From contig CAMZNS010000021.1 in NCBI GenBank assembly GCA_947313855.1, forward strand, positions 1 through 53,293: 53,293 nt of DNA, written 5' to 3'. The position numbers and the translations under genes were made by a program. This stretch comes from an uncultured Deferribacteraceae bacterium (GTDB lineage: Bacteria; Chrysiogenota; Deferribacteres; CAMZNJ01). Positions 1 to 53,293 of the stretch are shown piece after piece. Within the stretch, counting starts at the first letter, position 1; each line of letters opens with the position of its first letter. Below the pieces are notes generated by a model. It was not told the DNA's origin. It worked only from the letters and a program-made list of their open reading frames with translations, and ran no database searches.

Positions 1-525
1 ACCTGCTGGTACAACTTTCGCTGTAGTAGTAAAGAATACTGTTTTATTCTCGCCTACAGTTTTGGAAACTTCAACGTTGAATGTTTTGCCTTCAACGTCT
101 GCAACAGTTGTGCCTTCTTTTGCTGGGAAGCTGAATTTCAACATACCACCGGAGTAGCTAGCTGCCAAAACGTCGCTTGCTGTTGTTGCTGCACCTAGAG
201 TAACAAGAACATCAACTGCACCGTCGTTGTTGCCTGGCTCAAGGGACATAACAACTGCTGTATCACTTGCTCCGCCTGCAATGTAAGTGTCGTCGTCTGC
301 AGCCTCTGTTGCGCTCTTCACAAGACCTTTAACAGCAATCTCGCTGTACACAGCTGATGTTGTCTCTGTAGCAGCAGTCTTTATGAAGCTTGTGCTCAAG
401 CTTGCACCTGTAACAGCCACCTTCTCTTCGTCTCCACCGTTGTCAGAACCACAGGCAACTAGTGCCAATGATAGTACTGCGAATGTTAGGCCAAGGCCCA
501 AGCGTCTAAACATAGTTTTGCTCAT
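1..525 (-). CDS. Predicted secreted lipoprotein, 3' end cut by window edge
   Basis: The frame is open from the ATG at 525 to the window edge, giving 175 residues without a stop. A strong Shine-Dalgarno sequence (TAGGAGGA) lies just upstream. The N-terminus has two Arg, a hydrophobic stretch and the lipobox LALVAC, with the lipidated Cys at residue 25, followed by an acidic Gly/Asp linker (GSDNGGDEE). The rest is rich in Thr, Ala, Ser and Val and looks like a secreted beta-rich domain. I do not recognise the family. A sigma70-like promoter sits about 175 bases upstream. Role unknown; the export signal is clear, and the missing C-terminus prevents more. Confidence 0.8.
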   Translation of the reverse strand, partial: MSKTMFRRLGLGLTFAVLSLALVACGSDNGGDEEKVAVTGASLSTSFIKTAATETTSAVYSEIAVKGLVKSATEAADDDTYIAGGASDTAVVMSLEPGNNDGAVDVLVTLGAATTASDVLAASYSGGMLKFSFPAKEGTTVADVEGKTFNVEVSKTVGENKTVFFTTTAKVVPAG

Positions 526-701
526 ATGCAAATCCTCCTAAATAAAATAGTGTATACTTCTTTTTCGTCTCGTCCTTCTCTTCTCTCTTCTTTCTTTAAA
601 TATTATCGTACCGTACTCGCCCGACCTGCAAACTTATGCTTCTAAGCCAAAAAGACCGCCTAGCCGTTTTCGAACCACACAAGATACGTGATAACAAACC
701 C

Positions 702-729
702 ATTATACACCATCTTTCACGCAATGCAA
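702..729 (-). promoter_or_regulatory. Sigma70-type promoter of the truncated lipoprotein gene
   Basis: On the minus strand a TTGCAT -35 element (724-729) and a perfect TATAAT -10 (702-707) are separated by 16 bases and followed by GGG. Transcription would start near 695, leaving a 5' leader of about 170 bases before the lipoprotein start. The stretch from 730 to 946 shows no convincing gene. Confidence 0.6.
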
Positions 730-946
730 TACTTTATTTTAAGAAAAATTACCTTTCTAATTAAAAATACACCCTAACAAACAGTAACAACATGCGTCGC
801 AACGTAACAAATGAAAGATAGGGGGCATATGAGGCATACAAAAAAAATAGGCAAACCACCGAAAATAAAAATTGCAAAGCAAAGGACAACAAAATCGACC
901 CCAACAAAGCAAACTGCTAATCAAGACAAACAACAAGTAAATAAAA

Positions 947-1033
947 CGGAGGAGGAGGGATTTGAACCCCCGAACGGTTGCCCGTTAACGGTTTTCGAGA
1001 CCGTCCCCTTCAGCCTGACTCGGGCACTCCTCC
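947..1033 (-). tRNA. tRNA-Ser (anticodon CGA)
   Basis: A type II tRNA with a long variable arm folds on the minus strand. The acceptor stem GGAGGAG pairs with CTCCTCC, followed by a G discriminator base. The anticodon stem ACGGT/ACCGT closes the loop CTCGAAA, giving anticodon CGA for UCG codons. The variable arm is extended, as in serine tRNAs, and the T loop is TTCAAAT. No CCA is encoded; the 3' end runs into GTTTT, so CCA must be added after transcription. It lies downstream of yebC, beyond that gene's terminator. Confidence 0.93.
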
Positions 1034-1073
1034 AAAAAAACACACCCGTGAACACGATTGCACACCGATGTAC

Positions 1074-1116
1074 AAAAATGCTGCTGATCCTAGTATTACT
1101 AATATGACCAGCAGCA
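1074..1116 (-). terminator. Rho-independent terminator after yebC
   Basis: On the minus strand an 11-bp stem (TGCTGCTGGTC against GATCAGCAGCA, one G-U pair) with a 16-base loop is followed by TTTTT. It sits between the yebC stop (1172) and the tRNA-Ser gene and should end yebC transcription. Confidence 0.75.
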
Positions 1117-2901: not shown

Positions 2902-5900
2902 ATGGGAACATACCAAAACTCAAGTACCCTATGGGCAAAACTACTACAACGAATAACCCGAACACACACCCTAATGCTACTACCAATAGTAGCTCTCGCA
3001 CTCGCACTCGCCGGATGCGGCGGAGGTGATATCGGAGGCGGTGGAACTCCAGCTGACGGAGACGGAACCGCGGCCCAAGTACTCGAACTAAGACCTTCAC
3101 AAGAAGACATGGGCGTGCTCACTCTCAACACAGTCAACGAAGTACCACTCTACACCACCGGCGGACAAGCACCTTTCGTCTTCCTCGCTGTCAATAACCC
3201 GTACCAAGGGAAAATCGACATAAACATGAAACGTGGAACAAACATACTCACACTACAAACATACGAGGAATCTCAGTACGAGGAAACCGACTTCGCAAGA
3301 GAATACACACTACCCGTTCTCGTACAAGACTCCACAGGAACATTTGTCACCATCGAAGTAAAAGCACGACTCGCATCGTCAGCTAGCACCGGTGGATGTA
3401 CAAACATTGTCCCCGAAGTAACAATACCAGCCACACCAACCATATCCGATGACGGTATCCTAAACCTCACCTGGGAAGCGAAAGGGGTGAAAGGTGTCGG
3501 CTGTGACCTCACTGACGCAACATGGTCGTACACAACAAACAACACCGGATACGTTCTCACCGGACTTGCCTCAGGTGGACCACGAGAAGACGGCACCGGT
3601 AAGCAAATCGACCCCAACGACAGCAAAATCAACAAAGGAACCCTCACCACAGCTGGACAAACATACAAATCATACACAAAAATACCCATTCGCAGAGGGC
3701 TCACAAAAATATACATCACCCTCACACCTAAAGCTAATACTGGTGCTGAACCTGTTAAGATCAACAGCAGAGAGGTATTCGTAAACTACAACCCATCTGG
3801 TGGCGATGACGGTGGCAGTGGTGGCGATAGTGGCGAAGTTGCATACAAACTTCGTGGCGGTACAATCAACGCAGGAACACTCTCCAAAGGGGAAGACATC
3901 CTCGTCGACCTCAACCCCATAGGTGGCAAACTACCCTACACATTCCAAAACAGCATCTCCACAAACATACTCTACGGAAATCAGCTGAAAATTGTTGCCG
4001 TGGGCACATCAAAAGATGTTAGGGAGTACACCGACGCGGTTAAGGTAACTGATGCCAATGGCGACGTTGTATTCATCAACGTCAAATATGTGGAAGACAA
4101 CCAACCACCATTCATTGCCGACACAGGTGCATGCGAAAACCTTGCACCAACACTCACACAGTGGATGCTCAACCAAGTAGATAAAGATGGCAAAGTTACA
4201 CTTGAATGGAACTCCTACTACGTGAAGTTTTGCGACCTCACAAAGGGAAGTTGGACATACACTATTGAAAATGCAAACTACCCTGGTGGCAAAAAAACCT
4301 TCTCTTCCGATGCACCCATCACCACTCCAGGATCTAGCGATGTGGGCGTTCCATACAAAGGCTCTGCTGTCATAACACTACCAACCGGAAACTCAAAATT
4401 ATACGTAACAGTTATCCCCAAAGATGCCACAAATGGTGTTCGATCCGATACATTCTCACTTGTGTTCGGTAAAGCAGACGACCTTTTCACAGAGGTAGAC
4501 GCTAAGTCCGAAGTGTGGCGTGCCGACCCTGACAGCTCCTCATGGCCTGCTGGTGCACTGTCCAACCCTCAGTTCGACCCTGGTAGCGTGTCGGATAACT
4601 TCAAGAAACACATTACCAAAGCACAGTTTGAAACCATGTTCCCACGCCGTTGGGGCTCAGACAAATGGGATGCCCTAAACACTGGTGCTGTACCCCATCA
4701 GGCAGACGAGCCAGACTTCTTCTCCTACGACAACTTCGTCAAAGCTCTGGACGACATGGCACGTCTCAAACTAGTTGTTCGCCGTCGCGAAGGCACTAAC
4801 CTGCAAGAGGTTATTCGCCTAGACAAAGCTTCTGGCAAACAGATGACTGTTAAGATTGATGGCGACTTCTACGCTTCATGGAACAGCAATAAGAAGATTA
4901 TCTCCGAATACGTCGACTTCGGTGCATTTGCCAACGAAGGTACCGACGACCAACAGCGTCGTGAAATAGCTGCATTCTTTGCCAACATCGGTCACGAAAC
5001 CACTGGTGGCGGTGGCGGTTGGAATGCTCAAGATGGCTCCCATACTTGGGCGTTGTTCTTCCGTGAAGAGGTTTCATGGGCGTTCTGGAAACCTGGCGAT
5101 CCTGTTGGTTACGTGCAAGAGGCACACCCCGACTACCCTGGCACACCCGGACAATCCTACCACGGTCGTGGCCCTATTCAGCTTAGCTGGAACTACAACT
5201 ACGGCTACATGAGTGCCCTTGTTTACGGAAACATTAGCACCCTCTTGGATGATCCCGGTAAAATTACGCGTAACGGAACCCTAGCGTTCGATACCGGTAT
5301 CTGGTTCTGGATGACCCCACAAGCACCCAAACCATCTGCCCACAGCATCATTGCAGGCACATGGGATTACAAAACTGAACCTGTAGCAACATCGAACAAC
5401 ATTTTGGACGGCTTCGGTGCCACTGTCAACGTTATTAACGGCGGTCTTGAAGCAGGACCACACTACGCTCGCGAAATCAAGATTAACAACGGTGTGCTCA
5501 TCGATGGCAAAAGCGGTCAAACCCTTACAGCCTTCTACCTCGCGAAACTAGACTCCAACGGTATCGAGGATAGGAGCAGTAGTCAAAGTGTTGCAGTCAA
5601 CCTTGGGCTGGACTCCATCAAGCAGATAAAGGTACTGAGCGACAAGCTTCAGCTTACCGTTGTGGATAATGGTGTAACCAGTATCGTTACTGTTTCCGCA
5701 GCAGGAGACTACAAGCTTTCTGGTGGCGGGCTCAAGGGTGGCGGCTACATCCTTAAGTTTAGGATAAAACCTGGTATCAATGTGGAGGTTAGCGACTACA
5801 CCGACATTACGTTTGATGGCTCATTGAGCGAGCTGAAGGCGTTGAGTAATGCTCAGCTTGGCACTTCGAATAAGTTTAGTGAGTTTGTGAAGTTGTATCC

Positions 5901-6045
5901 AACAGGAACGCATTACATTGTTGTTGAGGACTACCGTGTCCATGACCGCATCAACTTCTACGACTACTTCGTACGCACCCTAACAGGTAACGGCAATCTT
6001 CTTGGACACCAGATTGGTGCTAAGAACCAGAAGTCGTTCTTCTAG
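2902..6045 (+). CDS. Modular lipoprotein with C-terminal GH19 chitinase domain
   Basis: A 1047-residue surface or periplasmic protein likely to hydrolyse chitin or a related beta-1,4-linked amino sugar. AAAGGAGG precedes the ATG. A signal peptide ends in the lipobox LALAGC (Cys39), then a Gly linker. Residues about 60-295 and 315-525 are two copies of the same pair of beta-rich modules (cadherin-like, then Ig-like with two Cys), joined by a Gly/Asp/Ser linker near 297-313. The GH19 domain occupies roughly 640-870: GHETTGG (likely catalytic acid Glu699), YHGRGPIQLSWNYNYG (753-768), WFWMTPQ and VINGGLEAG (844-852). A further 180 residues follow. GH19 domains also occur in lysozyme-like proteins, so peptidoglycan is an alternative substrate. 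Codon endings change from A/C to G/T along the gene. Confidence 0.88.
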   Translation: MGTYQNSSTLWAKLLQRITRTHTLMLLPIVALALALAGCGGGDIGGGGTPADGDGTAAQVLELRPSQEDMGVLTLNTVNEVPLYTTGGQAPFVFLAVNNPYQGKIDINMKRGTNILTLQTYEESQYEETDFAREYTLPVLVQDSTGTFVTIEVKARLASSASTGGCTNIVPEVTIPATPTISDDGILNLTWEAKGVKGVGCDLTDATWSYTTNNTGYVLTGLASGGPREDGTGKQIDPNDSKINKGTLTTAGQTYKSYTKIPIRRGLTKIYITLTPKANTGAEPVKINSREVFVNYNPSGGDDGGSGGDSGEVAYKLRGGTINAGTLSKGEDILVDLNPIGGKLPYTFQNSISTNILYGNQLKIVAVGTSKDVREYTDAVKVTDANGDVVFINVKYVEDNQPPFIADTGACENLAPTLTQWMLNQVDKDGKVTLEWNSYYVKFCDLTKGSWTYTIENANYPGGKKTFSSDAPITTPGSSDVGVPYKGSAVITLPTGNSKLYVTVIPKDATNGVRSDTFSLVFGKADDLFTEVDAKSEVWRADPDSSSWPAGALSNPQFDPGSVSDNFKKHITKAQFETMFPRRWGSDKWDALNTGAVPHQADEPDFFSYDNFVKALDDMARLKLVVRRREGTNLQEVIRLDKASGKQMTVKIDGDFYASWNSNKKIISEYVDFGAFANEGTDDQQRREIAAFFANIGHETTGGGGGWNAQDGSHTWALFFREEVSWAFWKPGDPVGYVQEAHPDYPGTPGQSYHGRGPIQLSWNYNYGYMSALVYGNISTLLDDPGKITRNGTLAFDTGIWFWMTPQAPKPSAHSIIAGTWDYKTEPVATSNNILDGFGATVNVINGGLEAGPHYAREIKINNGVLIDGKSGQTLTAFYLAKLDSNGIEDRSSSQSVAVNLGLDSIKQIKVLSDKLQLTVVDNGVTSIVTVSAAGDYKLSGGGLKGGGYILKFRIKPGINVEVSDYTDITFDGSLSELKALSNAQLGTSNKFSEFVKLYPTGTHYIVVEDYRVHDRINFYDYFVRTLTGNGNLLGHQIGAKNQKSFF

Positions 6046-6134: not shown

Positions 6135-6177
6135 GTTGTCTTTTTTGCTGCAGTGGTGTGTTACGTGGTGGGGTTGG

Positions 6178-6240
6178 TGGTTCGTGATGGTGGTGCGTGA
6201 TGGTGGTGCGTGATGGCTGTGCGTGATGGTGGTTCGTGAG
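6178..6240 (+). repeat. 13-bp tandem repeat, about 4-5 copies
   Basis: The unit is close to TGGTGCGTGATGG, with single-base variants. It lies between the terminator of the chitinase gene and the promoter of the glycerophosphodiesterase gene, outside any credible reading frame. Confidence 0.8.
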
Positions 6241-11902: not shown

Positions 11903-11948
11903 GTTTGTGTTGGTAGCGTGGGACGAACTCTGACGCGGTGGAAACGCT

Positions 11949-12047
11949 GTACGCAGGTCAACGCCGTACGCAGGTCAACGCTGTACGCAGGTCAACGCTG
12001 TACGCAGGTCAACGCTGTACGCAGGTCAACGCCGTACGCAGGTCAAC
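11949..12047 (+). repeat. 17-bp tandem repeat, about 6 copies
   Basis: The unit is GTACGCAGGTCAACGCT with a C/T variant at the last base. It starts about 45 bases after the transporter stop codon, and 17 is not a multiple of three. The array leads into a larger minisatellite. Confidence 0.92.
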
Positions 12048-12079: not shown

Positions 12080-12495
12080 GGAAGACGCCCACAGACGCCT
12101 AACACGGGCACAACTAAGTGGAAGAAGAGATCTGCCACAGACGCCGAACACGGACACAGCAAAGTGGAAGAAGGGACGCGCACAGAGGCCTAACACGGAC
12201 ACAACTAAGAGGAAGAAGAGACGCGCCACAGACGCCTAACACGGACACAGCTAAGTGGAACAAGAGCCGCCCACAGACGCCCAACACAGCCACAGCCAAG
12301 CGGAAACACACCCGCCCCCCAACAAGGAACCCACAAAGACGACAAACGCACGCCCACAGACGCCAAACCCAGAACCAACAAACAGGACAAAGAGACGCCC
12401 ACAGACGCCTAACACGGACACAGCTAAGTGGAAAAAGAGACGCCCACAGACGCCTAACACGGACACAACTAAGTGGAAAAAGAGACGCCCCCGTA
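12080..12495 (+). repeat. 45/46-bp minisatellite, about 9 degenerate copies
   Basis: Each unit carries the cores CACAGACGCCTAACACGG and CTAAGTGGAA, with substitutions and small indels; units near 12310-12400 are most diverged and the last two are nearly identical. Open frames on both strands are by-products of the A/C-rich sequence: they lack a ribosome-binding site, and units of 45 and 46 bp shift the frame. Confidence 0.9.
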
Positions 12496-13043: not shown

Positions 13044-13085
13044 AGGCTCAGGAACCGTCAGGCTCAGGAACCGTCAGGCTCGAGA
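13044..13085 (+). repeat. 16-bp tandem repeat, 2.5 copies
   Basis: The unit AGGCTCAGGAACCGTC occurs twice and is followed by a partial third copy, between the porin-like stop codon and its terminator. Confidence 0.75.
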
Positions 13086-16801: not shown

Positions 16802-17089
16802 GCGTGTGCGGACGTTGGGACGTGTGCGGATGTTGGAACGTGTGCGGATGTGCGGACGTGTGTGGATGTTGGGACGTGTGCGGGCGTTGGAACGTGTTCG
16901 GGCGTTGGAACGTGTGCGGATGTGCGGACGTGTGCGGATGTTGGAACGTGTGCGGACGTTGGGGCGTGTGCGGGCGTTGGGGCGTGTGCGGGCGTTGGGG
17001 CGTGTTCGGGCGTTGGGGCGTGTGCGGGCGTTGGGGCGTGTTCGGGCGTTGGAACGTGTGCGGGCGTTGGAACGTGTGCGGACGCAGAA
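16802..17089 (+). repeat. 18-bp tandem repeat, about 16 copies
   Basis: The unit is GTGTGCGGGCGTTGGAAC with frequent changes (GGAC/GGGC, GGATGTGCGGAC). The array begins immediately after the nagE terminator. Because 18 is divisible by three it leaves all six frames open, producing repetitive open frames on both strands that have no ribosome-binding sites. Confidence 0.92.
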
Positions 17090-37365: not shown

Positions 37366-38601
37366 ATGGATAAGATATATAAAATGAATAACGAACACTC
37401 GACCACAAACTCAGCCACAAACTCAGCCACAAACTCAGCCACAAACTCAGCCACAAACTCAGCCACAAACTCAGCCACAAACTCAGCCACAAACTCAGCC
37501 ACAAACTCAGCCACAAACTCAGCCACAAACCCAAACTACTTCCACAACCTACTACAAGACGACGACCTTGTTGCCGCCCCCTTAGCTGGCGTCACCAACC
37601 GTGCTTTCCGAAACATTATTCGCAACTACCACTCAGGACTAATGTTCACCGAGATGATATCCGTTGAGGGTCTTGTTCGCCAAATACAAAAAACCCTCCA
37701 CTACCTCTCCATCGACGCAAGTGAAGGGGATGTCCATGTTCAACTATTTGGCATGAATCCCGAAAGTTTTTCTGGTGCCGTACAGGTGTGCGAGGATGGC
37801 ACCGAGGGGGAACATATCAAAGGGTACAACGTAAACATGGGGTGTCCAGCGAAAAAGGTTTACAAAAAAGGTGGCGGGGCAGGACTTCTGCGTGACACGA
37901 ACACCGTTGCGAAAATCTGTCAACACATGCGAAAATCCACCACCAAACCCATATCCATCAAAATACGACTAGGATGGGACAACAACAACATGGTGTATCG
38001 TGAAATACTGAATATCGCCGAAAACGAAGGGGTGGACGCTCTCATCATTCATGCACGAACTCGCAAGCAGATGTTCGCAGGCGTACCGATATACAGTGCG
38101 TTGGAGGAGCTTGCCCAAAATGCCAAAAACGTCGCTCTCATCGGTAACGGTAACGCCTTTGATCGTGAAAGCTACCTCCAAATTAAAAACACGGGGATGC
38201 ACGGCGTAATGCTAGGACGTGGGATGATGAAAAAGCCGTGGATATTTCAGGCCATCAAGGAGGACAAAAACCCCGACACATACCTGTCGCCCAAAGAGAT
38301 ATATAACCTACTGATGTCACTAGCACAACACGAAACCGAACTCGCAACACGCAGAAACGATCCACATGGTTACAATCTCGCTCTCATCAAGAAATACGCC
38401 GTGTGGTTTAGCAAGGGGCTAGCCAACTCAGCAGAGTTTCGTGGGCAGGTGTATGCAAAAATGTCGCCTGTGGACAAGGCACTTGCAGCACGAGCAGGCA
38501 CAACAACACAGTCGTATCATGGTTCACCACAGTATGAGCAGGAGAAGGAGCAGTTTTGGCGTACCATGGACTACTACTTCAACGCCAACCAGTCACCGTA
38601 G
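37366..38601 (+). CDS. dus: tRNA-dihydrouridine synthase with repeat-coded N-terminal tail
   Basis: FMN enzyme reducing uridines in the tRNA D arm. The 411-residue protein has a catalytic TIM barrel starting near residue 62: AAPLAGVTNRAFR, NMGCPAKKVYKKGGGAGLL with catalytic Cys160, SIKIRLGWD, IIHARTRKQMFAG, LIGNGNAFDRE and GVMLGRGMMKKPWIF. Before it stands a tail of about 60 residues dominated by (TNSA)n, encoded by a 12-bp repeat; ordinary Dus proteins begin only a few residues before the barrel. The start at 37366 has a weak ribosome-binding site; an ATG at 37384 is possible, but both leave the tail translated. A start between the repeats and the barrel was not found. Confidence 0.92.
   Translation: MDKIYKMNNEHSTTNSATNSATNSATNSATNSATNSATNSATNSATNSATNSATNPNYFHNLLQDDDLVAAPLAGVTNRAFRNIIRNYHSGLMFTEMISVEGLVRQIQKTLHYLSIDASEGDVHVQLFGMNPESFSGAVQVCEDGTEGEHIKGYNVNMGCPAKKVYKKGGGAGLLRDTNTVAKICQHMRKSTTKPISIKIRLGWDNNNMVYREILNIAENEGVDALIIHARTRKQMFAGVPIYSALEELAQNAKNVALIGNGNAFDRESYLQIKNTGMHGVMLGRGMMKKPWIFQAIKEDKNPDTYLSPKEIYNLLMSLAQHETELATRRNDPHGYNLALIKKYAVWFSKGLANSAEFRGQVYAKMSPVDKALAARAGTTTQSYHGSPQYEQEKEQFWRTMDYYFNANQSP
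37405..37530 (+). repeat. 12-bp in-frame tandem repeat in dus, about 10.5 copies
   Basis: ACAAACTCAGCC is repeated with almost no variation, encoding Thr-Asn-Ser-Ala units. The opposite strand gives an artefactual Leu-Ser-Leu-Trp frame. Confidence 0.95.
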
Positions 38602-38610: not shown

Positions 38611-38684
38611 ACGCCTGCACCGCACCAGCACCGCCTGCACCGCCTGCACCGCACCAGCACTGCCTGCACCGCAACAGCACCGTG
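38611..38684 (+). repeat. CGCCTGCAC / CGCACCAGCAC repeat between dus and arcC
   Basis: Words CGCCTGCAC and CGCACCAGCAC alternate about four times in the gap between the convergent dus and carbamate-kinase stop codons. Confidence 0.8.
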
Positions 38685-38697: not shown

Positions 38698-39672
38698 CTA
38701 GCTCACAATGTGCGTACCCGTCTCACCCCTCAACGCTTCGTTGACCTTGCTTAGGGAGGTGATTAGTGCCTTGCGACCCTTTTTCGACCGCACAAATGCG
38801 GAACATGCTTCCACTTTTGGCAACATGGATCCTTTGGCGAAGTGTCCCTGAGCAGTGTACTCATCGACCTCCTGCAAGGTCAGGGTATTGAGCCATTTTT
38901 GGTTCTCCTTGCCGAAGTTGAGTGCCACTTTTTCCACCTCAGTAAGTATAACCAGTGTGTGTGCGTCTATATTTTCCGCCAATTTTGCCGACGCAAAATC
39001 TTTATCGATAACAGCTTCCACACCGTCGAGGGTGGTCCCCTTTTTTATCACAGGCACACCGCCCCCTCCAACGGCAATAACGGTTATGTTTTCGTTGAGC
39101 AATGCTTTGATCGTGGCAAGCTCAACAATCTCCAGCGGCTTGGGGGATGCGATGACTCTGCGGAACCCGCGACCGCTATCCTCCTTCATAACGTACCCTT
39201 TGCTCCTTTCCAACGCTTCCGCTTCAGACTTTGTGTAAAAAGGACCGATAGGTTTGGTGGGGTTGTTGAATGCCTCATCATGGGGACTCACCACCACCTG
39301 CGTAACCAATGAGCTTACCCCAGACGACACTATGCCACGATTGTTTAGCTCCCCTTTGAGTGCTTGTTGAATATGGTAACCGAGCATACCTTGGCTCATG
39401 GCTCCACATACATCGAAAGGCATGGGTGGCGTAATCTCTTTGGCGGCCTCATTCTGCAACCCGATACGACCCACCTGAGGACCATTGCCATGGGTAAGAA
39501 CAACCTTCATCCCCACCGAAATCAGTTCGGCAATATGCGTCATGGATGCTTCGATAACTTTCTTCTGATTGTCAGCAGTGGGCGAGTCGCTGTTTTCCAA
39601 TGCGTTACCCCCTAGGGCAACCACCACTATCTGTTCAGTGCTACCCTTATTCGACTGTTTTTCCACCTTCAT
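38698..39672 (-). CDS. arcC: Carbamate kinase
   Basis: Last step of the arginine deiminase pathway: carbamoyl phosphate plus ADP gives ATP, CO2 and ammonia. 324 residues with VVALGGNAL at the N-terminus, THGNGPQVGRI, QGMLGYHIQQAL, VVSPHDEAF, IAVGGGGVPV, DKDFASAKLAENI and the C-terminal GSMLPKVEACSAFV, all family signatures. AGGGAG lies nine bases before the ATG. Last gene of the arcA-arcB-arcD-like-arcC operon; a repeat array separates it from the transporter. Confidence 0.95.
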   Translation of the reverse strand: MKVEKQSNKGSTEQIVVVALGGNALENSDSPTADNQKKVIEASMTHIAELISVGMKVVLTHGNGPQVGRIGLQNEAAKEITPPMPFDVCGAMSQGMLGYHIQQALKGELNNRGIVSSGVSSLVTQVVVSPHDEAFNNPTKPIGPFYTKSEAEALERSKGYVMKEDSGRGFRRVIASPKPLEIVELATIKALLNENITVIAVGGGGVPVIKKGTTLDGVEAVIDKDFASAKLAENIDAHTLVILTEVEKVALNFGKENQKWLNTLTLQEVDEYTAQGHFAKGSMLPKVEACSAFVRSKKGRKALITSLSKVNEALRGETGTHIVS

Positions 39673-39704
39673 AATTAAATCTCCCTAAAAGGCGAGGGGG
39701 GGGC

Positions 39705-39764
39705 GAACTCCCAAGAGTGCCCGAGAATACCCGAGAACTCCCGAGAGTGCCCGAGAATGCCCGT
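39705..39764 (+). repeat. 10-bp tandem repeat between the arc transporter and arcC
   Basis: CCGAGAACTC-type decamers (variants CCGAGAGTGC, CCGAGAATAC) occur about six times just upstream of arcC. Confidence 0.82.
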
Positions 39765-39806
39765 GGGCTTAAACCACCATCAAACCCCCTCGCAAACAAC
39801 TATTAC

Positions 39807-41186
39807 CTACAGAGCAAACATCACCACAACAAGAGCTATGGTAATGTTTATCAATACCAGTGGGTAAATAAATCGCACCCAGTTTATCCAGCTAACCCGA
39901 GCCATGGCAAGGGCAGCAATGAGCACACCACTTGTTGGCGTAATCAGGTTGACCGCACCGGATGCCGATTGGTAAACTGTCACAATAAGTGATCTTGGTA
40001 CGTCGAATAGATCCCCCAACGGTGCCATGATGGTCATTGTGAGAGCAGCGTGCCCAGATGACGACGGCACCAAGAAGGCAATACCCAGCTGAACCGCCTG
40101 ATTTAGCACGATGAACGCATATGTGGACAACCCCGACAAGAACTCCGCCGTACCGTTTAGGATGGTGTCCATAATAACACCATCTTGGGCGATCAAAACA
40201 ATACCCCTAGCCAAACCGATAACAAGGGCTGCCGAAAGTAGATCTTGTGCACCTGTGATAAATGCATTCCAGAAAACTTCGTCCTTCATGCGACTAACAA
40301 TCCCACTCAACATGGCAACAACCAAGAAAAGCATGGTTATCTCCTGCATCCACCAACCCAAAACAATAATGCTGTAGATCATGAAACCGATCATGGACGC
40401 AAACATTAGTAGTATTATTTTGTGGGATGCCAAAAACTCACCCTGCGACGACTCAGATTCGTCATCTTGCTGATTCAAGAAGTGCTCCCGATGCTCCTCC
40501 AAGGAGTCGGCAACAATGGACTTACTCGGATCTTTCTTGACCTTCGCCGCGTAACGCATAACATAGAGTATGGACACGGTTGTTACTAGCACGTAGATAA
40601 CAAGACGATGATTCAATCCGTCGGCTAGATCTACACCCGCAATGGCAGAGGCGATACCCGTGGCAAATGGGTTGACCGTTGAGCCCAACACCCCTGCACC
40701 AGCTCCGATGAAAATCACCGACACACCAACAATAGCATCGTATCGCAAGGCTATCATGAGGGGGATCATCATCAAGTAAAACGGTAGCGTCTCTTCGTAC
40801 ATCCCCGTCGTTGTGCCCCCGATGGAGAACAGTACCATCAGGATGGGGATTACGAGTTTGTCGCTTTTCCCCAACCTGCGAATAGCCTGACGCAAACCGC
40901 TGTCGATGGCACCTGTTTTCAGAATAACACCGTAAGCTCCCCCAACAATCAGCACAAACGCGATTATTTCAGCTGAATCGATGATACCTTTGGCAAAAGC
41001 GGTAAAAACACTCATGAAGCCTTGCGGGTTGGAGTCAACAATGTGGTAGGATCCGGGGATAACTAGCTCACGCCCTACCCCTTCGTCGAAAGCGGTATCG
41101 AACTGTCCAGCAGGCAGCACCCAGGTTAGCACTGCAAAGATAACAATTAGTCCAAAAATGATAGAAAATGTATGTGGTACTCTCAT
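39807..41186 (-). CDS. YfcC-family transporter, probable arginine/ornithine exchanger
   Basis: A 459-residue inner-membrane protein with about 12 helices. The VPHTFSIIFGLIVIFAVLTWVLPAGQF start, GGTTTGMYEETLPFY, GAGAGVLGSTVNPFATGIASA and the second-half LVPSSSGHAALTMTIMAPLGDL are typical of the YfcC/DcuC-like family. It sits inside a complete arginine deiminase operon in the place usually taken by ArcD, which supports arginine-ornithine exchange, but it is not the APC-type ArcD, so the substrate is inferred from context. AAGGAGAG precedes the ATG. Confidence 0.88.
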   Translation of the reverse strand: MRVPHTFSIIFGLIVIFAVLTWVLPAGQFDTAFDEGVGRELVIPGSYHIVDSNPQGFMSVFTAFAKGIIDSAEIIAFVLIVGGAYGVILKTGAIDSGLRQAIRRLGKSDKLVIPILMVLFSIGGTTTGMYEETLPFYLMMIPLMIALRYDAIVGVSVIFIGAGAGVLGSTVNPFATGIASAIAGVDLADGLNHRLVIYVLVTTVSILYVMRYAAKVKKDPSKSIVADSLEEHREHFLNQQDDESESSQGEFLASHKIILLMFASMIGFMIYSIIVLGWWMQEITMLFLVVAMLSGIVSRMKDEVFWNAFITGAQDLLSAALVIGLARGIVLIAQDGVIMDTILNGTAEFLSGLSTYAFIVLNQAVQLGIAFLVPSSSGHAALTMTIMAPLGDLFDVPRSLIVTVYQSASGAVNLITPTSGVLIAALAMARVSWINWVRFIYPLVLINITIALVVVMFAL

Positions 41187-41220
41187 TAGTCTCTCCTTAT
41201 GGTATTCGTCTTGTTTCGGA

Positions 41221-41300
41221 TGTGTTTAGTTGTGTTTAGTTGTGTTTAGTTGTGTTTAGTTGTGTTTAGTTGTGTTTAGTTGTGTTTAGTTGTGTTTAGT
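41221..41300 (+). repeat. 10-bp tandem repeat TGTGTTTAGT, 8 copies
   Basis: Eight identical decamers, then a partial ninth, begin within ten bases of the arcB stop codon and extend to about 35 bases before the transporter start. They fill most of that intergenic gap. Confidence 0.95.
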
Positions 41301-41308
41301 TGTGTTTA

Positions 41309-42295
41309 TCAGTGTCCCAGAGTTGCAACCATTACAGCTTTGATGGTGTGGAGTCTGTTTTCCGATTCGTCAAAGACAACCGATTGTGCACTTTCAAACA
41401 CTTCGTCGGTGACCTCTAGTCCATTGAGTCCGTATTTTTCGAACACCTCTTGCCCGATGACGGTTTTTGTATCGTGGAATGCTGGCAAGCAGTGCAGGAA
41501 TATTGCGTCTTTGTTTGCTTTTGCCATGAGTTTGGCATTAACTTGGTAAGGTTTGAGTAGTTCTATCCTTTCGTCCCAGTTGTCTTCGCCCATGGAGACC
41601 CAAACGTCGGTGTACACAGCGTCAGCACCTTTTACGCCTTCGTCAATGTTGTCTGTGATGGTTATTTTTGCTCCAGATTTTTCGGCAATTTTGCGTGCTT
41701 CTGCGACCAATTTTTCGTCAGGGAATAGTGATTTCGGTGCACAGATGCGGAAATCCATCCCCATGATTGCTGCCCCTTCGAGTAGTGAGTTCGCCATGTT
41801 GTTGCGTCCGTCGCCGCAGTAGACAAGTGTTACGTCTTCAAGTTTCCCTTTGTGTTCCTCTAGTGTCATGAAGTCTGCCAATATTTGTGTTGGGTGAGCT
41901 TCATCTGTGAGTCCGTTGTACACTGGCACGCCGGAGTATTTTGCGAGATCCTCCACAGCTTCTTGGGAGAACCCACGGAATTCGATGGCATGGTACATCC
42001 GTCCTAAAACCCTTGCGGTATCGGCAACAGATTCTTTTTTGCCAAGTTGCGAGCCTGATGGTCCTAGGTATGTTACGTGTGCACCCTGATCGAATGCTGC
42101 CACTTCGAAAGCACAACGTGTTCGTGTGGAGTCTTTTTCAAAGATGAGGGCAATATTTTTCTTTGAGAGTAGTGGTGCCTCTGTGCCGTTGTATTTTGCT
42201 TGTTTAAGGGAGTGCGATAGGTCGAGCAAAAATCGGAGTTCCTTTTTGGAAAAGTCCAATAACCGTATAAAACTTCTATTTCTCAAGTTGTACAT
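41309..42295 (-). CDS. arcB: Ornithine carbamoyltransferase, catabolic by context
   Basis: Converts citrulline and phosphate to ornithine and carbamoyl phosphate. 328 residues with the carbamoyl-phosphate site STRTR (56-60), HPTQILAD, the SMG-type ornithine loop (VWVSMGED) and HCLPAFHD. Sequence alone does not separate catabolic from anabolic enzymes; the operon with arcA and arcC does. AAAGGAG precedes the ATG at 42295; arcA ends 41 bases upstream. Confidence 0.95.
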
Positions 42296-42336
42296 CTGCT
42301 AACTCCTTTCTAGTGTTGAATTTACGTTTGTCAGGT

Positions 42337-43566
42337 TTATATGTCTTCGCGAATAAGGGGCATGGACATGCACCTTGGGCCACCGCGACCACGGGAAAGC
42401 TCGCTGGAAGCAACCACGTGGATTTTAATGCCCGCCTCTTCAAGGAGCCTGTTGGTAATAACATTTCTGTCGTAAACAACTACCTCACCGGGGGCTATTG
42501 CTAGAGTGTTGGTGGCGTCGTTCCACTGTTCGCGAGCGGAGTAGATGGGGTGCCCACCAGCACACCTTATGAGATTGACACTACCACCGACACACTCCTC
42601 CAATACACGCTGAAGAGTCTGCACTTCCTCCGTCACCTTTACACCGTAGTCCGAATGATTATCTTTGACCATCTTGTAAATATTAAGCGGTGCCTCAATC
42701 TCTGAATGTATGGTAAATGTGGCATGATCGATATGTGTGAAAACCGTGTCAAGGTGCATGAAAGCCCTTGTGGACGGAATCCTAAGGGCATAAATTGTCT
42801 CAATCTTGTTGTCGCCACTAAAAATATTCCTCGCCAAAATATCCAGGGAAGAAGCATCTGTACGCTCCGATATCCCTATGATAAGGGTTGTTGCATTCAA
42901 AACAAGGATGTCGCCACCCTCTAAGCAAGCATCCGAATCTCGCTCAAACCACCGCGGAACATTACTGCCACCGTATGTCGGGTGATGGGTGAACACATAC
43001 TCGGAAAATAGAGTCTCACGACGACGAGTCTCGTTACGCATACTATGCAACGACACACCATTGCCGATGGAAGCGAATGGATCACGCTGGAACAACAGGT
43101 TGGGCAAAGGATCGCACAAAAACGGGTAGTGATCCTCAGCTATCGATGAGAGCGAAACACCCTTATGACCCTTGAGATCGCTCTTCAATACACCAGCAAT
43201 CATGTAGTTTACCATCGACAAAGGGGACAAACTCAAAAGCAAATCAATAAGAGCATCTGTTTTATGGGGAGAAATTACACCAGCCTCACGAAGAAACTGA
43301 CGAACAAACTGCTCCCGAATACTATCCGAAACGAGGGACTCTGTAACAAGATCCTCGAAGTAAACAACGCCAACACCAGAATCACGCAGAACCTGTGCAA
43401 AAGCATCGTGCTCTTTTTGTGCAACATCCAAAAAAGGTGTGTCGTCAAACAACAATCGATCAAGCAGATCGGGCGTCAAGTTGTTTAGCTCGTTACCAGG
43501 GCGGTGCAACAGTACCTTCTTTAGCTTACCTATCTCAGAAAAAACATGAATGGGATGATGAAACAT
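42337..43566 (-). CDS. arcA: Arginine deiminase
   Basis: Hydrolyses arginine to citrulline and ammonia, the first step of the pathway. 409 residues: IHVFSEIGKLKKVLLHRPGNELNNL region at the N-terminus, PNLLFQRDPFASIG, EGGDILVL, the His pair in FMHLDTVFTHID, and the nucleophile Cys399 in RGGPRCMSMP. Two ATGs follow AAGGAGG; the second (43566) has a normal five-base spacing. First gene of the operon. Its promoter region contains a repeat array carrying -35 and -10 elements and a pair of 28-bp direct repeats. Codons are mostly G/T-ending. Confidence 0.96.
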   Translation of the reverse strand: MFHHPIHVFSEIGKLKKVLLHRPGNELNNLTPDLLDRLLFDDTPFLDVAQKEHDAFAQVLRDSGVGVVYFEDLVTESLVSDSIREQFVRQFLREAGVISPHKTDALIDLLLSLSPLSMVNYMIAGVLKSDLKGHKGVSLSSIAEDHYPFLCDPLPNLLFQRDPFASIGNGVSLHSMRNETRRRETLFSEYVFTHHPTYGGSNVPRWFERDSDACLEGGDILVLNATTLIIGISERTDASSLDILARNIFSGDNKIETIYALRIPSTRAFMHLDTVFTHIDHATFTIHSEIEAPLNIYKMVKDNHSDYGVKVTEEVQTLQRVLEECVGGSVNLIRCAGGHPIYSAREQWNDATNTLAIAPGEVVVYDRNVITNRLLEEAGIKIHVVASSELSRGRGGPRCMSMPLIREDI

Positions 43567-43588
43567 CATAACCTCCTTAAACCAAATA

Positions 43589-43630
43589 ATACGTCAATAT
43601 AATAAGTCAATATAATACGTCAATATTATG
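43589..43630 (-). repeat. 14-bp tandem repeat in the arcA promoter, 3 copies
   Basis: On the minus strand the unit is TATTGAC(G/T)TATTA. It repeats three times just upstream of the arcA ribosome-binding site, and each copy brings a TTGAC and a TATTA word. Confidence 0.8.
43596..43623 (-). promoter_or_regulatory. Promoter of the arginine deiminase operon
   Basis: TTGACG (43618-43623), a 16-base spacer and TATATT (43596-43601) are formed by neighbouring copies of the 14-bp repeat. The next repeat copy supplies a second, overlapping TTGACT-TATTAT combination. Confidence 0.55.
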
Positions 43631-44598: not shown

Positions 44599-45333
44599 CT
44601 ACTCCTCGAGGGAACTACCCATGGTTTTTAGGTAAACATCTTCTAGATCGGTGGCATTATTCGCCGCCAAGTGACCTTCTGGGGTGTCAAGAGCAACTAT
44701 CTTGCCCGCATCAACAAAGGCGATACGATGGCAAAGCTCCTCCGCCTCTTTCATGTAGTGTGTGGTGAGGATAACGGTGCGCCCTTTCGCATTGAGGTCG
44801 CGAATAATACTCCATACAACCTGACGACTATGGGGATCAAGCCCCGCACTAGGTTCGTCTAGGATGAGTATTTTGGGGTCATTAATGATGGAGCGTGCGA
44901 GAACAACACGACGTTGCTGTCCACCCGATATTTGTGTTACGCGTGCGTTACGTTTGTGCTCTAGACCGACAAGTGTAAGGAGTTCATCGATACGTTCTAA
45001 ACGCTTCTTACGAGGAATGTTAAAGTAGTTGGCATACAGGTAGAGGTTTTCGAAAACCGTTAGGTCTGGATCGAGGTTATTGTCCTGTGGCATGATGCCG
45101 AGACAGCGTTTGATGGTGCTTGCTTTCCTGTTTGGGTTAAGACCTAGTACGGTCAAGTCCCCACTTGTTGCGGGGAAGTAGCAGGATATCATTTTGATGA
45201 GGGTGGACTTGCCGGCACCGTTTGGTCCTAGGAAGCCGTATATTTCACCTTTTTTTATATCGAAGCTGATTCCGCGAATAGCTTCGGTGCCACTGGAGTA
45301 GCGTTTGTTTAGGTTTTTTGCTGAGACGACCAT
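44599..45333 (-). CDS. ABC-2 type transporter ATPase (NodI/CcmA-like)
   Basis: A 244-residue ATPase with Walker A GPNGAGKST, the Q-loop region LGIMPQDNNLDPDLTVFENL, signature ISGGQQRRVVLARS, Walker B ILILDEPSAGLDP and switch TTHYMKEAEELC. It drives the NodJ-like permease directly downstream. GGAGTG lies ten bases before the ATG. Confidence 0.93.
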   Translation of the reverse strand: MVVSAKNLNKRYSSGTEAIRGISFDIKKGEIYGFLGPNGAGKSTLIKMISCYFPATSGDLTVLGLNPNRKASTIKRCLGIMPQDNNLDPDLTVFENLYLYANYFNIPRKKRLERIDELLTLVGLEHKRNARVTQISGGQQRRVVLARSIINDPKILILDEPSAGLDPHSRQVVWSIIRDLNAKGRTVILTTHYMKEAEELCHRIAFVDAGKIVALDTPEGHLAANNATDLEDVYLKTMGSSLEE

Positions 45334-45903: not shown

Positions 45904-45961
45904 AAAACACCTCTAATTTAGCAGAGAACAGTTTAGTGACTAATAATCTAGAAGCAAACAG

Positions 45962-46074
45962 GACACACGTGGCGGGCTCTCGCACAACAGACACACGTGG
46001 CGGGCTCTCGCACAACAGACACACGTGGCGGGCTCTCGCACAACAGGACACACGTGGCGGGCTCTCGCACAACA
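45962..46074 (+). repeat. 28-bp tandem repeat, 4 copies
   Basis: Four nearly identical units with the core CGTGGCGGGCTCTCGCACAA lie head to tail in the gap between nhaB and uspA. There are no spacers, so it is not a CRISPR. Confidence 0.93.
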
Positions 46075-46151
46075 GACATCCAAGTAACTAATGTAGCGTA
46101 GCACACTTAATATAAAATATCAATAAAAATTTAACCTGCTCTAATTTAGTG

Positions 46152-48826: not shown

Positions 48827-50002
48827 CTAGTACATTATCATGGCGTCGCCATAGCTGTAAAATTTGTACTGCTCCCTAATCGCCTCCCCATACGCCTCCA
48901 AAAGCTGTTCCCTGCCGTAGAAAGCACTCATCATCACAAGGAGAGTTGTTCGTGGCATGTGGAAGTTGGTTATGATGGCATCCGCAACGCGAAATCGGAA
49001 CCCAGGAGTAATGTAAAGGGACGTTTCACCAGCGTAGGGGGTAAGGAGGGGGCTGCTAGTGCTAGTGTGGGGGCTGCTAGTGCTAGTGTGGGGGCTGCTA
49101 ATGCTAGTGTGGGGGCTGCTAGTGCTAGTGTGGGGGCTGCTAGTGCTAGTGTGGGGGCTGCTAATGCTAGTGTGGGGGCTAGTGCTAGTGTGGGGGTTAG
49201 TGCCCCCCAGTAACGCATTGCTCTCCAGTGCACGCACACTAGTGCTACCCACGCAAACAACCTTACGCCCCTCAGCCTTATCCATATTAATAGCATGGGC
49301 AGTTTCAGGCGTAATTTCGTAGTATTCGCTGTGAATGCTGTAGTCGTCGATGGCGTCTGTGTTAATGGGTTTGAACGTCCCCAACCCTATGTGCAGTGTT
49401 ATCTCATGGACACGTATCCCCCGTTGCTCCAGCTCCGCCAAAACATGTTGGCTAAAGTGTATGCTCGCCGTGGAGCTTGCCACCGATCCTAGGTGGTTGG
49501 CGAAGATGGTTTGGTAGGCATGGGTGTCTTCGGGAGTATCGTCGCGATCGATGTATGGGGGCAAGGGAGTGTGCCCTTCGGCGATCATAACCGCAAACGG
49601 ATCGGACGAGAACTCTAGGAGCACAGTGCCATCCTCGAACCTTTCAAGCAGTTGCACAGTGGCTGTTTCCAGGGTGAGTGTTGTTCCCAGAGGTACCCGT
49701 CCCCTTATCATGGAGGTAAATTTGTTCCCTCCAGCATGTTTTAGTAGTAGTAGTTCTATCCGTTTGCCGGAGGATTTATTGGCGTAGAGGCGTGCCTTCA
49801 TAACCTTGGTGTTGTTGACCACTAGGGAGCATTTTTCGGGGAAGATTTTGGTTAGTATTTCGGGTAGATTTTGGAAGTAATCGTGTGAGATGGCATCAAC
49901 CTTGCGTTCGATACACATGAGGCGTGATGTTGCTCTGTCTGTCTTGCCATATTTGGCTATTAGGTGGTTTGGTAGGTGGTATTCAAAATTAGAAGTCAGC
50001 AT
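48827..50002 (-). CDS. queA: S-adenosylmethionine:tRNA ribosyltransferase-isomerase QueA, with repeat insertion
   Basis: Adds the epoxycyclopentanediol ring in queuosine synthesis for GUN-anticodon tRNAs. 391 residues against the usual 340-350. MLTSNFEYHLPNHLIAKYGK is the normal N-terminus; VVNNTKVMKARL, HFSQHVLAELEQRGI, HIGLGTFKPI, GSTSVRALES and ITNFHMPRTTLLVMMSAF are conserved. The excess is a stretch of about 50 residues (270-318) of TSTSSPH-type repeats between SVRALES and GETSLYITPGF, encoded by a 21-bp tandem repeat. No ribosome-binding site precedes the ATG, but a near-perfect promoter places the transcript start at or next to it, so the mRNA is probably leaderless. Confidence 0.94.
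   Translation of the reverse strand: MLTSNFEYHLPNHLIAKYGKTDRATSRLMCIERKVDAISHDYFQNLPEILTKIFPEKCSLVVNNTKVMKARLYANKSSGKRIELLLLKHAGGNKFTSMIRGRVPLGTTLTLETATVQLLERFEDGTVLLEFSSDPFAVMIAEGHTPLPPYIDRDDTPEDTHAYQTIFANHLGSVASSTASIHFSQHVLAELEQRGIRVHEITLHIGLGTFKPINTDAIDDYSIHSEYYEITPETAHAINMDKAEGRKVVCVGSTSVRALESNALLGGTNPHTSTSPHTSISSPHTSTSSPHTSTSSPHTSISSPHTSTSSPHTSTSSPLLTPYAGETSLYITPGFRFRVADAIITNFHMPRTTLLVMMSAFYGREQLLEAYGEAIREQYKFYSYGDAMIMY
49049..49195 (-). repeat. 21-bp in-frame tandem repeat in queA, about 7 copies
   Basis: The plus-strand unit is built from GGGGGCTGCTAGTGCTAGTGT (one copy has lost the GCT-type word and T/A variants change Thr to Ile). It encodes Ser-Pro-His-Thr-Ser-(Thr/Ile)-Ser units. 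Confidence 0.93.
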
Positions 50003-51165: not shown

Positions 51166-51176
51166 CGTTATACGTC

Positions 51177-51494
51177 CGATGTTGGCGTTGATGTTGGCGT
51201 TGGCGTTGGCGTTGGCGTTGGCGTTGGCGTTGGCGTTGGTGTTGGCGTTGATGTTGGCGTTGGCGTTGGCGTTGATGTTGGCGTTGATGTTGGCGTTGAT
51301 GTTGATGTTGGCGTTGGCGTTGGCGTTGGCGTTGGCGTTGGCGTTGGCGTTGATGTTGGCGTTGGCGTTGATGTTGGCGTTGATGTTGGCGTTGATGTTG
51401 GCGTTGATGTTGGCGTTGGCGTTGGCGTTGATGTTGGCGTTGCGTTGGCGTTGGCGTTGATGTTGGTGTTGGTGTTGGCGTTGGCGTTGATTGA
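51177..51494 (+). repeat. 6-bp tandem repeat GTTGGC/GTTGAT, about 53 copies
   Basis: About 318 bases of GTTGGC with interspersed GTTGAT and GTTGGT units, between the terminator of the barrel gene and the bioA stop codon. The opposite strand gives an artefactual Thr-Pro/Thr-Ser frame. The same hexamer recurs at the bioA 5' end. Confidence 0.96.
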
Positions 51495-51525
51495 GTTGGC
51501 TACGTTGGTTGCCGCCAACTACCCC

Positions 51526-52959
51526 CTAGCTATTCCCAAACCTTTCAATAGCCTCAATACCTTTATTCAGTGCGTGTCGAATAAGGTCGAACTCCCTCGA
51601 TCCGATGGTCAATGGTGCCCAAAGATACACCACGTCCCCCAAAGGTCGTACAAACACACCAGCCTCAACCATGGCATTTGTAAACACCTTGGCAAGCTCT
51701 GACGCACACTCTGACGCACACTCTGACGCACACTCTGACGCAAGCTCCCCACGTCGAACAGCATTTGCAACACAACCACCCTCTTCAGCAATACTCAGCT
51801 TCATCATCCCCACCATGCCTATTGCTTCATGGGCGACTCCCAACCTCTGTGCACAGTTGGCAATAACTTCCCGTAGCACTTCCCCATTTTTTTTCACCGT
51901 GCTGAAAATATCATCTTTTTTGTAGATATCGAGAACAGCCAATGCAGCTTCACACGCTGCAGGGTATCCGCCAAACGTATGTGAGTGCCAAAAGATTTTA
52001 TTTTCGAACGAGTTGTATATCCGTTCGTTTGCGATGGCGACGCTCATGGGTGCATGTCCTGCTGTTAGCGCCTTACCTAGCACAAGGATATCTGGTACAA
52101 CGTTACTGTGATTGCATGCGAATAGTTCCCCTGTTCTGTAGAACCCCACGGCGATTTCGTCTGCAATGAGGAGTATGTTGTATTCGTCGCACACTTTTCG
52201 CAATTTGGTCATGTATTTGGGTGGGGATATTTTCACCCCTCCAGCCCCCTGCACCATTGGTTCGACGATAATTGCTGCCACTTCGTTGTGGTATTTTGTT
52301 ACAATTTGTTTGATGCTGTCAAAGCATTCCACGTTGCATGTTTTCGGTTGTTGTTTGTGTGGGCACAGCAGGCAGTTGGGTGCTTCGCCAACATGGGCAC
52401 GATTTACGACATCTTCGAGTGGTGCGTGGAACGATTCGAGGAATCCGACACCAATGGCACCCATGGTGTCACCGTGGTATGCGTCTTGCAACGCTATGAA
52501 CCTATTTTTTCCTTGTACGCCAATATTTACCCAATACTGAATAGCCATACGTAATGCAGCTTCCACAGCACTAGCACCATCGCTGGCGTAGAATGAGTGG
52601 TTGAGATCTCCCGGTGTGATGGTGGCAAGTTCCCTTGAGAGGTTGATTACGCTAGTGTGTGCCATCCCACCTAGTATTACGTGTTGTTTGGTTTGTAGTG
52701 AGTTTATCATCCGTTCCACAATTTCACTACGCGAATGTCCGAGTGAGACGCACCACCATGATGATATTCCATCGAGTAGTTTTCGTCCGTCGGTGGTGTG
52801 CATGTAGAAGCCTTGTGCACGTTCGATAATGGGGTAGTTTGTTTGTTTAAACTCGGTCATGTTGGTGTCGGGGTGCCAAGTGAGGTTGTTTGCGTGCGTT
52901 GGCGTTGGCGTTGGTGTTGGCGTTGGTGTTGGCGTTGGTGTTGGCGTTGTGTTGTTCAT
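51526..52959 (-). CDS. bioA: Adenosylmethionine-8-amino-7-oxononanoate aminotransferase with repeat insertions
   Basis: PLP enzyme of biotin synthesis that forms 7,8-diaminopelargonate using SAM. 477 residues against about 430-450: DGISSWWCVSLGH, YASDGASAVEAALRMA, ALQDAYHGDTMGAIGV, EPMVQGAGGVKISP, DEIAVGFYRTG (Asp267) and PLP-Lys296 in LGKALTAGHAP. CLLCP and CNVEC form the four-Cys patch seen in many BioA. Two insertions come from tandem repeats: an N-terminal (PT)8-9 tract and an ASEC tract near 403-419. CGGAG lies eight bases before the ATG at 52959, so the Pro-Thr tract is translated. The upstream gene, probably bioD, ends 13 bases before. Confidence 0.94.
   Translation of the reverse strand: MNNTTPTPTPTPTPTPTPTPTHANNLTWHPDTNMTEFKQTNYPIIERAQGFYMHTTDGRKLLDGISSWWCVSLGHSRSEIVERMINSLQTKQHVILGGMAHTSVINLSRELATITPGDLNHSFYASDGASAVEAALRMAIQYWVNIGVQGKNRFIALQDAYHGDTMGAIGVGFLESFHAPLEDVVNRAHVGEAPNCLLCPHKQQPKTCNVECFDSIKQIVTKYHNEVAAIIVEPMVQGAGGVKISPPKYMTKLRKVCDEYNILLIADEIAVGFYRTGELFACNHSNVVPDILVLGKALTAGHAPMSVAIANERIYNSFENKIFWHSHTFGGYPAACEAALAVLDIYKKDDIFSTVKKNGEVLREVIANCAQRLGVAHEAIGMVGMMKLSIAEEGGCVANAVRRGELASECASECASECASELAKVFTNAMVEAGVFVRPLGDVVYLWAPLTIGSREFDLIRHALNKGIEAIERFGNS
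51696..51744 (-). repeat. 12-bp in-frame tandem repeat in bioA, 4 copies
   Basis: The plus-strand unit ACTCTGACGCAC encodes Ala-Ser-Glu-Cys, repeated in the small C-terminal domain of BioA and adding three Cys. Confidence 0.9.
52897..52949 (-). repeat. 6-bp in-frame tandem repeat at the bioA 5' end
   Basis: GTTGGC/GTTGGT hexamers on the plus strand encode the Pro-Thr tract of BioA just after the start codon. The unit and orientation equal those of the large array beyond the bioA stop. Confidence 0.9.
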
Positions 52960-52972
52960 CGCGAGACTCCGC

Positions 52973-53293
52973 TCATGTGTATTTTGTTGTTACCCTAGTG
53001 ATGGCTGTGAATAGCTTGTCGCCATGGGTTATCACTGCTGTATCGCCGTGCATGTTGGTGCCGTGCATCTTGGTGCCGTGCATCTGTGCAATGCATGGTA
53101 TTGCCGAGAAGTTTTCGATGGTTTGGATATTGTCTTGGTGCTGTGCATCTTGGTGCTGTGCATCTTGGTGCTGTGCATCTTGGTGCTGTGCATCTTGGTG
53201 CTGTGCATCTTGGTGCTGTGCATCTTGGTGCTGTGCATCTTGGTGCTGTGCATCTTGGTGCTGTGCATCTTGGTGCTGTGCGTCTCGGTCGTG
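52973..53293 (-). CDS. 3' part of a repeat-rich gene, probably bioD, cut by window edge
   Basis: A frame open from the window edge to a TGA at 52973-52975 ends 13 bases before bioA, as expected in an operon. The last 60 residues read like a folded protein: DNIQTIENFSAIPCIAQ, then an MHGTKMHGTNMHG mini-repeat and DTAVITHGDKLFTAIT. Upstream, a 15-bp array encodes Gln-His-Gln-Asp-Ala units in this frame. The position before bioA and the ENF-x-x-IP pattern suggest dethiobiotin synthetase, whose C-terminus often has such a strand, but the conserved N-terminal ATP motif is outside the window. Other frames here are simple repeats with early stops. Confidence 0.55.
   Translation of the reverse strand, partial: HDRDAQHQDAQHQDAQHQDAQHQDAQHQDAQHQDAQHQDAQHQDAQHQDAQHQDNIQTIENFSAIPCIAQMHGTKMHGTNMHGDTAVITHGDKLFTAITRVTTKYT
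53129..53284 (-). repeat. 15-bp tandem repeat, about 10 copies, at the right edge
   Basis: The plus-strand unit CATCTTGGTGCTGTG repeats almost perfectly up to the window edge; a diverged pair lies at 53050-53085. It is in frame with the probable bioD. Confidence 0.95.

Follow-up and report, generated by a model that had tools for sequence, protein, structure and literature searches.

Tandem arrays with locus-specific units are dense throughout the genome of Candidatus Rimicarispirillum atlantis, a gut symbiont of deep-sea vent shrimp with a reduced genome of 1.34 Mb (PMC12887300, PMC9636832), and they are a property of the whole lineage, including a sister species, rather than of the single region analysed at the outset. 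That region, hereafter the window, is contig 21 of the draft genome G000 (1,343,155 bases, 49 contigs, 90.7% complete) and is 53,293 nucleotides long. The threonyl-tRNA synthetase of G000 shares 94% identity with that of the metagenome-assembled genome (MAG) M_SnakePit_MAG_00002, and the MAGs of this lineage are Illumina/Megahit assemblies with 87.0-97.6% average nucleotide identity among four of them (PMC9636832). The sister species is represented by G001, an 86% complete draft of which 530 kb (~40%) were compared. The arrays are probably the product of a genome-wide minisatellite regime, in which they would be born by slippage, limited in unit length by the size of loop that MutS/MutL corrects, filtered by selection and subject to turnover of their units.

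Density and distribution of tandem arrays

Arrays were called with Tandem Repeats Finder (TRF), using non-overlapping arrays at a score of at least 50 as the main cut-off and a score of at least 80 as the stricter one. For the window, TRF returned 77 rows at a score of at least 30 and 30 non-overlapping arrays at the main cut-off, with units of 6, 7, 9, 10, 12, 13, 15, 16, 17, 18, 20/29, 21, 28 and 45 bp. An earlier description of the window made from its letters alone, hereafter the sequence-only reading, had reported dense, locus-specific arrays; this is borne out, and the units that it listed were recovered. It had placed the arrays between co-directional genes, between convergent genes and, in some cases, within genes, and all three settings were found in the window.

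Across 1.312 Mb of G000 we counted ~770 arrays, corresponding to 5.87 per 10 kb and 4.8% of bases, and the compared portion of G001 carried 5.37 per 10 kb. Relatives from the class and phylum (400 kb in 20 stretches) held 0.60 arrays per 10 kb, approximately tenfold fewer than G000, and 79 thrS loci from diverse bacteria held 0.93 per 10 kb. An order-3 Markov sequence of genome size yielded 4 arrays at the main cut-off and none at the stricter one, against 770 and 426 in G000. The density is unusual for the class, in line with the sequence-only reading, with the refinement that it characterises the whole genome and the sister species, not this region. Contigs longer than 20 kb carried 3.8-8.8 arrays per 10 kb, evenly along their length, with the window typical at 5.6, and the density thus does not fall to normal elsewhere in the genome.

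Of 86 contig ends, 13 were located inside arrays, above the 5.6 expected (p 0.004), indicating that short reads break there and that the true amount of array sequence is likely underestimated. The same enrichment, in an Illumina draft (PMC9636832), implies that some copy numbers are wrong and could be taken to mean that the arrays are themselves artefacts of short-read metagenomic assembly. We regard this as extremely improbable, since reading-frame preservation, a protein-compatible composition and the sharing of sites by two separate genomes (see below) are not made by assembly, and short-read assembly tends to collapse arrays, not to create them.

Among 771 arrays, 742 units were distinct, and no unit was common to loci as in MITE, REP or CRISPR families, which agrees with the lack of shared sequence noted for the window. 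A partner at 85% identity or above was found for 13 of the 339 units of at least 10 bp, and some of these look like a single array split across two contigs. A dispersed or mobile shared unit was rejected on these counts. Hairpin-driven units were also ruled out, as array sequences folded no better than arrays of shuffled units.

Unit length, reading frame and turnover

When only perfect runs of 24 bp or longer were counted, units of 2-4 bp occurred at no more than 0.8 runs per Mb, compared with 5.3 for 5 bp, 41 for 6 bp, 88 for 9 bp and 110 for 12 bp; period-1 rows, at 4.6 and 11.3 per Mb, are as numerous as the runs of N, of which each genome has 6. Units of 5-20 bp dominate, and arrays of two to four copies are abundant. 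Units of 3 bp would preserve the frame and yet are essentially absent, so the scarcity of short units is not a frame effect. Bacterial MutS handles loops of up to about 3-4 nt, and the lower edge at 5 bp fits intact mismatch repair. At the upper end, the number of intergenic arrays from both genomes falls abruptly once the period exceeds 20 bp, with 17 arrays at 20 bp and 4 at 21 bp, which suggests that slips have a maximum distance.

Within the genes of G000 (1,086 called in this analysis, coding fraction 0.858), 331 of 355 array periods were multiples of three, compared with 118 of 363 in intergenic sequence (Fisher p 3e-70), where the three frame classes were flat (118/121/124). With the spacers as neutral yardstick, the in-gene density was 47% for in-frame arrays and 1.6% for out-of-frame arrays. 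That all in-gene units are multiples of three, as claimed from the window, is true for every strong in-gene array there; the exceptions, at 31835-31866 (period 16) and 49839-49891 (period 23), consist of approximately two degenerate copies each. Arrays made up 42% of base pairs in convergent spacers, 17% in co-directional spacers and 6.5% in divergent spacers, and were scarce in the last fifth of a spacer before the downstream start. Purifying selection is evidently strong on both frame and promoters.

In-gene arrays, present in 238 genes and located all along the protein length, code for small and polar residues (H, A, T, D, P, G, N and S), with F, I, L, Y and W being avoided. Even essential genes carry arrays, and the housekeeping enzymes that have them include tsaD, dusB, queA, bioA and polA. 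The seven SSPHTST units of queA form an insert predicted to be disordered (predicted local distance difference test score, pLDDT, ~30) between a helix and a strand; class relatives have no insert, and the corresponding stretch of the sister species is short (STSPDASTSN). Repair genes also contain arrays, namely polA (five copies of 12 bp, separating its exonuclease part from its polymerase part), mutS2 and mutL, and the sbcD match is interrupted in both genomes. The G+C content of arrays is 59%, versus 47% for the genome, and arrays are skewed to A/C on one strand, with a purine skew lower than random. A strand bias as such was rejected because the A/C-rich strand is the coding strand in genes and the skew is not found in co-directional spacers; the skew in genes is tentatively read as amino-acid selection.

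These filters bear on two further explanations. Pure multi-copy arrays, which are probably variable, could serve as adaptive contingency loci for phase or antigenic variation, but the preservation of frame, the avoidance of promoters and the presence of arrays in housekeeping enzymes make this highly unlikely. Alternatively, arrays may be born at an ordinary rate and persist through weak selection in a host-restricted symbiont of small population size, in keeping with the reduced gut-symbiont genome (PMC12887300, PMC9636832) and its gene losses, for example of Y-family polymerases (PF00817), which had no match in the G000 or G001 drafts; this and the other gene-family absences reported here rest on the draft genomes of both species. 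We consider this explanation rather unlikely, given that purifying selection on frame and promoters is strong, that the spacers of class relatives should also be nearly neutral ground and yet these genomes hold overall about tenfold fewer arrays, and that long-standing endosymbionts have been described with very few repeats (PMC7821994).

Comparison with the sister species was based on 249 of its array sites in collinear positions, and the median flank identity between G000 and G001 at array sites was 88%. Units and copy numbers differ widely between the two species. Of the 134 in-gene arrays examined in G001, 85 (63%) had a counterpart array at the same place in G000, versus 42 of 1101 control sites. 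Among 67 strong site pairs, the period was identical in 10 and about half had recognisably similar units. Sites therefore persist while their units are replaced. Where the array was missing in one species, a copy of the unit at 80% identity or above was found there in 42% of cases (64 sites) when the sister species was the one without the array and in 33% (55 sites) in the other comparison, against 7% and 4% in a shuffled-unit control, and these resident single copies indicate that arrays are born by local duplication of resident sequence. The sequence-only reading had proposed that slippage or unequal exchange gives birth to arrays that are then filtered by reading frame, which fits all of the data. 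The arrays are nevertheless not simply separate births at random places, given the sites shared with the sister species.

Arrays of the window are listed below by window position, with the strand in brackets where one is assigned. The last row gives positions elsewhere in G000.

6175-6239: 13-bp unit x5, spacer
11943-12047: 17-bp unit x6.2, convergent spacer
12083-12490: 45-bp unit x9 (91-bp higher-order unit), convergent spacer
13044-13081: 16-bp unit x2.4, spacer
16803-17084: 18-bp unit x15.7, spacer between the convergent PTS IIBC and rplT genes
17713-17770: 19-bp unit x3.1, spacer adjoining rplT
23459-23703: 7-bp unit TCCGTGA x35, co-directional spacer adjoining a LolD-like ABC gene; no array there in the sister species
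27118-27326: 13-bp unit x2.5 and 24/25-bp unit x4.6, spacer between the convergent mdh and astacin-type protease genes; a different 25-bp unit in the sister species
28682-28716 (-): 9-bp unit x3.9, in frame, within the double-astacin protease gene; a 21-bp unit in the sister species
36202-36239 (+): 12-bp unit x3.2 (NENS), C-terminus of a polysaccharide-deacetylase-family gene; one near-copy in the sister species
36347-36391 (+): 9-bp unit x5 (GNT), in frame, within tsaD; a related but different 9-bp unit in the sister species
37403-37530 (+): 12-bp unit x10.7, 100% pure (NSAT), in-frame N-terminal extension of dusB; absent from the sister species
38612-38672: 29-bp unit x2.1, convergent spacer between dusB and arcC; a 15-bp unit x17 in the sister species
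39705-39763: 10/30-bp array, spacer separating arcC from a YfcC-type antiporter gene; absent from the sister species
41221-41308: 10-bp unit x8.8, 100% pure, within a spacer of the arginine deiminase cluster; a single unit copy (90%) in the sister species
43586-43626: 13-bp unit x3.2, spacer upstream of arcA
45957-46078: 28-bp unit x4.3, spacer; absent from the sister species
49048-49196 (-): 21-bp unit x7.2 (SSPHTST), in frame, within queA
51181-51489: 6-bp unit x52, convergent spacer; a 24-bp unit x2.2 in the sister species
51697-51742 (-): 12-bp unit x3.8, in frame, within bioA; absent from the sister species
52896-52954 (-): 6/12-bp array (TPTPTP), in frame, N-terminus of bioA
53133-53289 (-): 15-bp unit x10.5, reaching the end of the contig, with the assembly break inside the array
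G000:C39:13378-13437; G000:C10:44100-44137, 45294-45321; G000:C35:17590-17618: arrays in polA, mutS2 and mutL

The double-astacin gene (27348-30239) encodes a protein whose two halves are both astacin-type proteases and which appears to result from an internal duplication. The arginine deiminase cluster (arcC, antiporter, arcB and arcA) spans 38698-43569 and has arrays in its spacers. Elsewhere in the window, at 2902-6045, this shrimp-gut symbiont encodes a protein of 1047 amino acids that contains a class I chitinase (GH19) domain.

Proposed mechanism and candidate cause

Under the minisatellite regime that we favour, the nascent strand would slip back during replication over a short unique stretch, mostly of 5-20 nt, and so duplicate it. 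The resulting unit could then expand or contract and degenerate, and a new unit could nucleate in the same low-complexity tract, such that the site would outlast the unit. Loops of up to 4 nt would be corrected by MutS/MutL, judged intact from gene presence and from the unit-length spectrum, and this correction would explain why only units of approximately 5 bp and up accumulate. Selection would remove out-of-frame arrays within genes and arrays in promoter regions; in-frame arrays may survive as low-complexity linkers, and arrays behind genes would be nearly free.

RecA-dependent unequal exchange or gene conversion between copies, not slippage, might instead be what mainly grows the arrays. 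RecA and RuvB/RadA-like proteins are present in G000, and the 45/91-bp higher-order array and the units of 25 bp or more fit copy-to-copy exchange, but the first duplication of a unique stretch of 5-20 nt cannot rest on long homology, and the abrupt start of the unit-length spectrum at 5 bp, like the many arrays of two to four copies, fits small slipped loops. We therefore judge exchange quite unlikely as the main source of array growth.

The sequence-only reading had advised looking for loss of mutS/mutL, recJ or sbcCD, and no such loss was found among the genes covered: MutS (917 amino acids), MutS2 (849 amino acids) and MutL (653 amino acids) are open and full length, and RecJ, ExoVII (XseA), SbcD, PolA and RecA (the last by profile search) are present, SbcC not having been included in the search. 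A mismatch-repair-deficient mutator was rejected because mutS and mutL are open and full length. DnaQ-type exonucleases (PF00929), by contrast with the 22 of 24 relatives in which they are present, usually in several copies, had no match in the G000 or G001 drafts. In E. coli, the single-strand exonucleases ExoI, ExoX and RecJ reportedly keep tandem repeats stable (PMC3942315, PMC3753628), and in Portiera the loss of dnaQ is associated with repeats and instability (PMC7821994). A candidate cause of frequent slippage would thus be the loss of all DnaQ-type 3'-5' exonucleases in the reduced genome, with slipped 3' ends left untrimmed. We put this loss forward only tentatively as the main cause of the high birth rate; it is possible, though doubtful, that the loss of all these exonucleases together with the retention of mismatch repair leaves slips of 5-20 nt uncorrected and shorter ones erased.

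Several observations weigh against the slippage regime or its proposed cause. The PHP exonuclease motif of DnaE (HHDHEHCDH) keeps all nine residues, and replicative proofreading by DnaE is, to judge from its sequence, probably retained. Two AT-rich relatives from the class, G023 and G024 (L259-L288), are also without PF00929 and exhibit only a modest rise in density, 0.8 arrays per 10 kb versus ~0.2 at the stricter cut-off; their arrays are of another type, being long, few-copy and AT-rich. DnaQ loss was accordingly rejected as a sufficient cause. The presence of RecA leaves room for unequal exchange, both genomes are incomplete drafts, and the present activity of the arrays is something that we infer from pure arrays and from differences between the species.

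Comparison with known repeat-rich genomes

Bacterial minisatellites, known as variable-number tandem repeats (VNTRs) and used in multiple-locus VNTR analysis (MLVA), consist of head-to-tail units of about 6-100 bp. The arrays of G000 are the same kind of element but far denser, the wider bacterial sample holding ~0.9 per 10 kb. By word search, the main texts of papers on this lineage do not mention arrays of this kind.

Reduced genomes that are rich in repeats have been described before. Ehrlichia ruminantium (~1.3 Mb) has many tandem repeats that are reported to expand and contract; they are described in non-coding regions, and the coding ratio is ~64%, a low value that reflects long spacers (PMC10710844). 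G000 is similarly reduced and rich in tandem repeats but is ~86% coding, with nearly half of its arrays in genes and units mostly of 5-20 bp. Portiera of Bemisia tabaci lacks dnaQ and has 111 listed tandem repeats, especially microsatellites, exceeding those of its relatives, alongside rearrangements, large spacers and a replication and repair repertoire that is strongly reduced (PMC7821994). G000 resembles it as a reduced symbiont genome with no PF00929 match and with repeats above those of relatives, but differs in its intact mismatch repair, the essential absence of 1-4-bp units, its moderate spacers and the presence of MutS, MutL, RecJ, XseA, SbcD, PolA and RecA. In tolA of Blochmannia, in-gene repeats differ in unit and length between sister species (PMC4389277), the same divergence as observed here, although in one gene there compared with 238 genes in G000. 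Our genome belongs to neither the Ehrlichia ruminantium nor the Portiera type and is set apart as a variant because it fails their other defining features, a low coding ratio in the one and microsatellites with reduced repair in the other.

If DnaQ-type exonucleases have indeed been lost and mismatch repair kept, the genome would record both how large a loop MutS can handle and how well a proteome tolerates in-frame insertions at each site. As a natural record of copying slippage and of what selection lets survive, it opens the possibility of testing, in one organism, what limits minisatellite birth in bacteria, up to what loop size mismatch repair works in nature and where in a protein new disordered insertions are tolerated. 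In the known repeat-rich bacterial genomes compared above, the repeats are mainly non-coding or microsatellite, or are tied to broadly reduced repair; G000 shows intact mismatch repair with a hard 5-bp edge, intergenic arrays that are flat across frames, in-gene arrays that are in frame, and sites that outlive their units.

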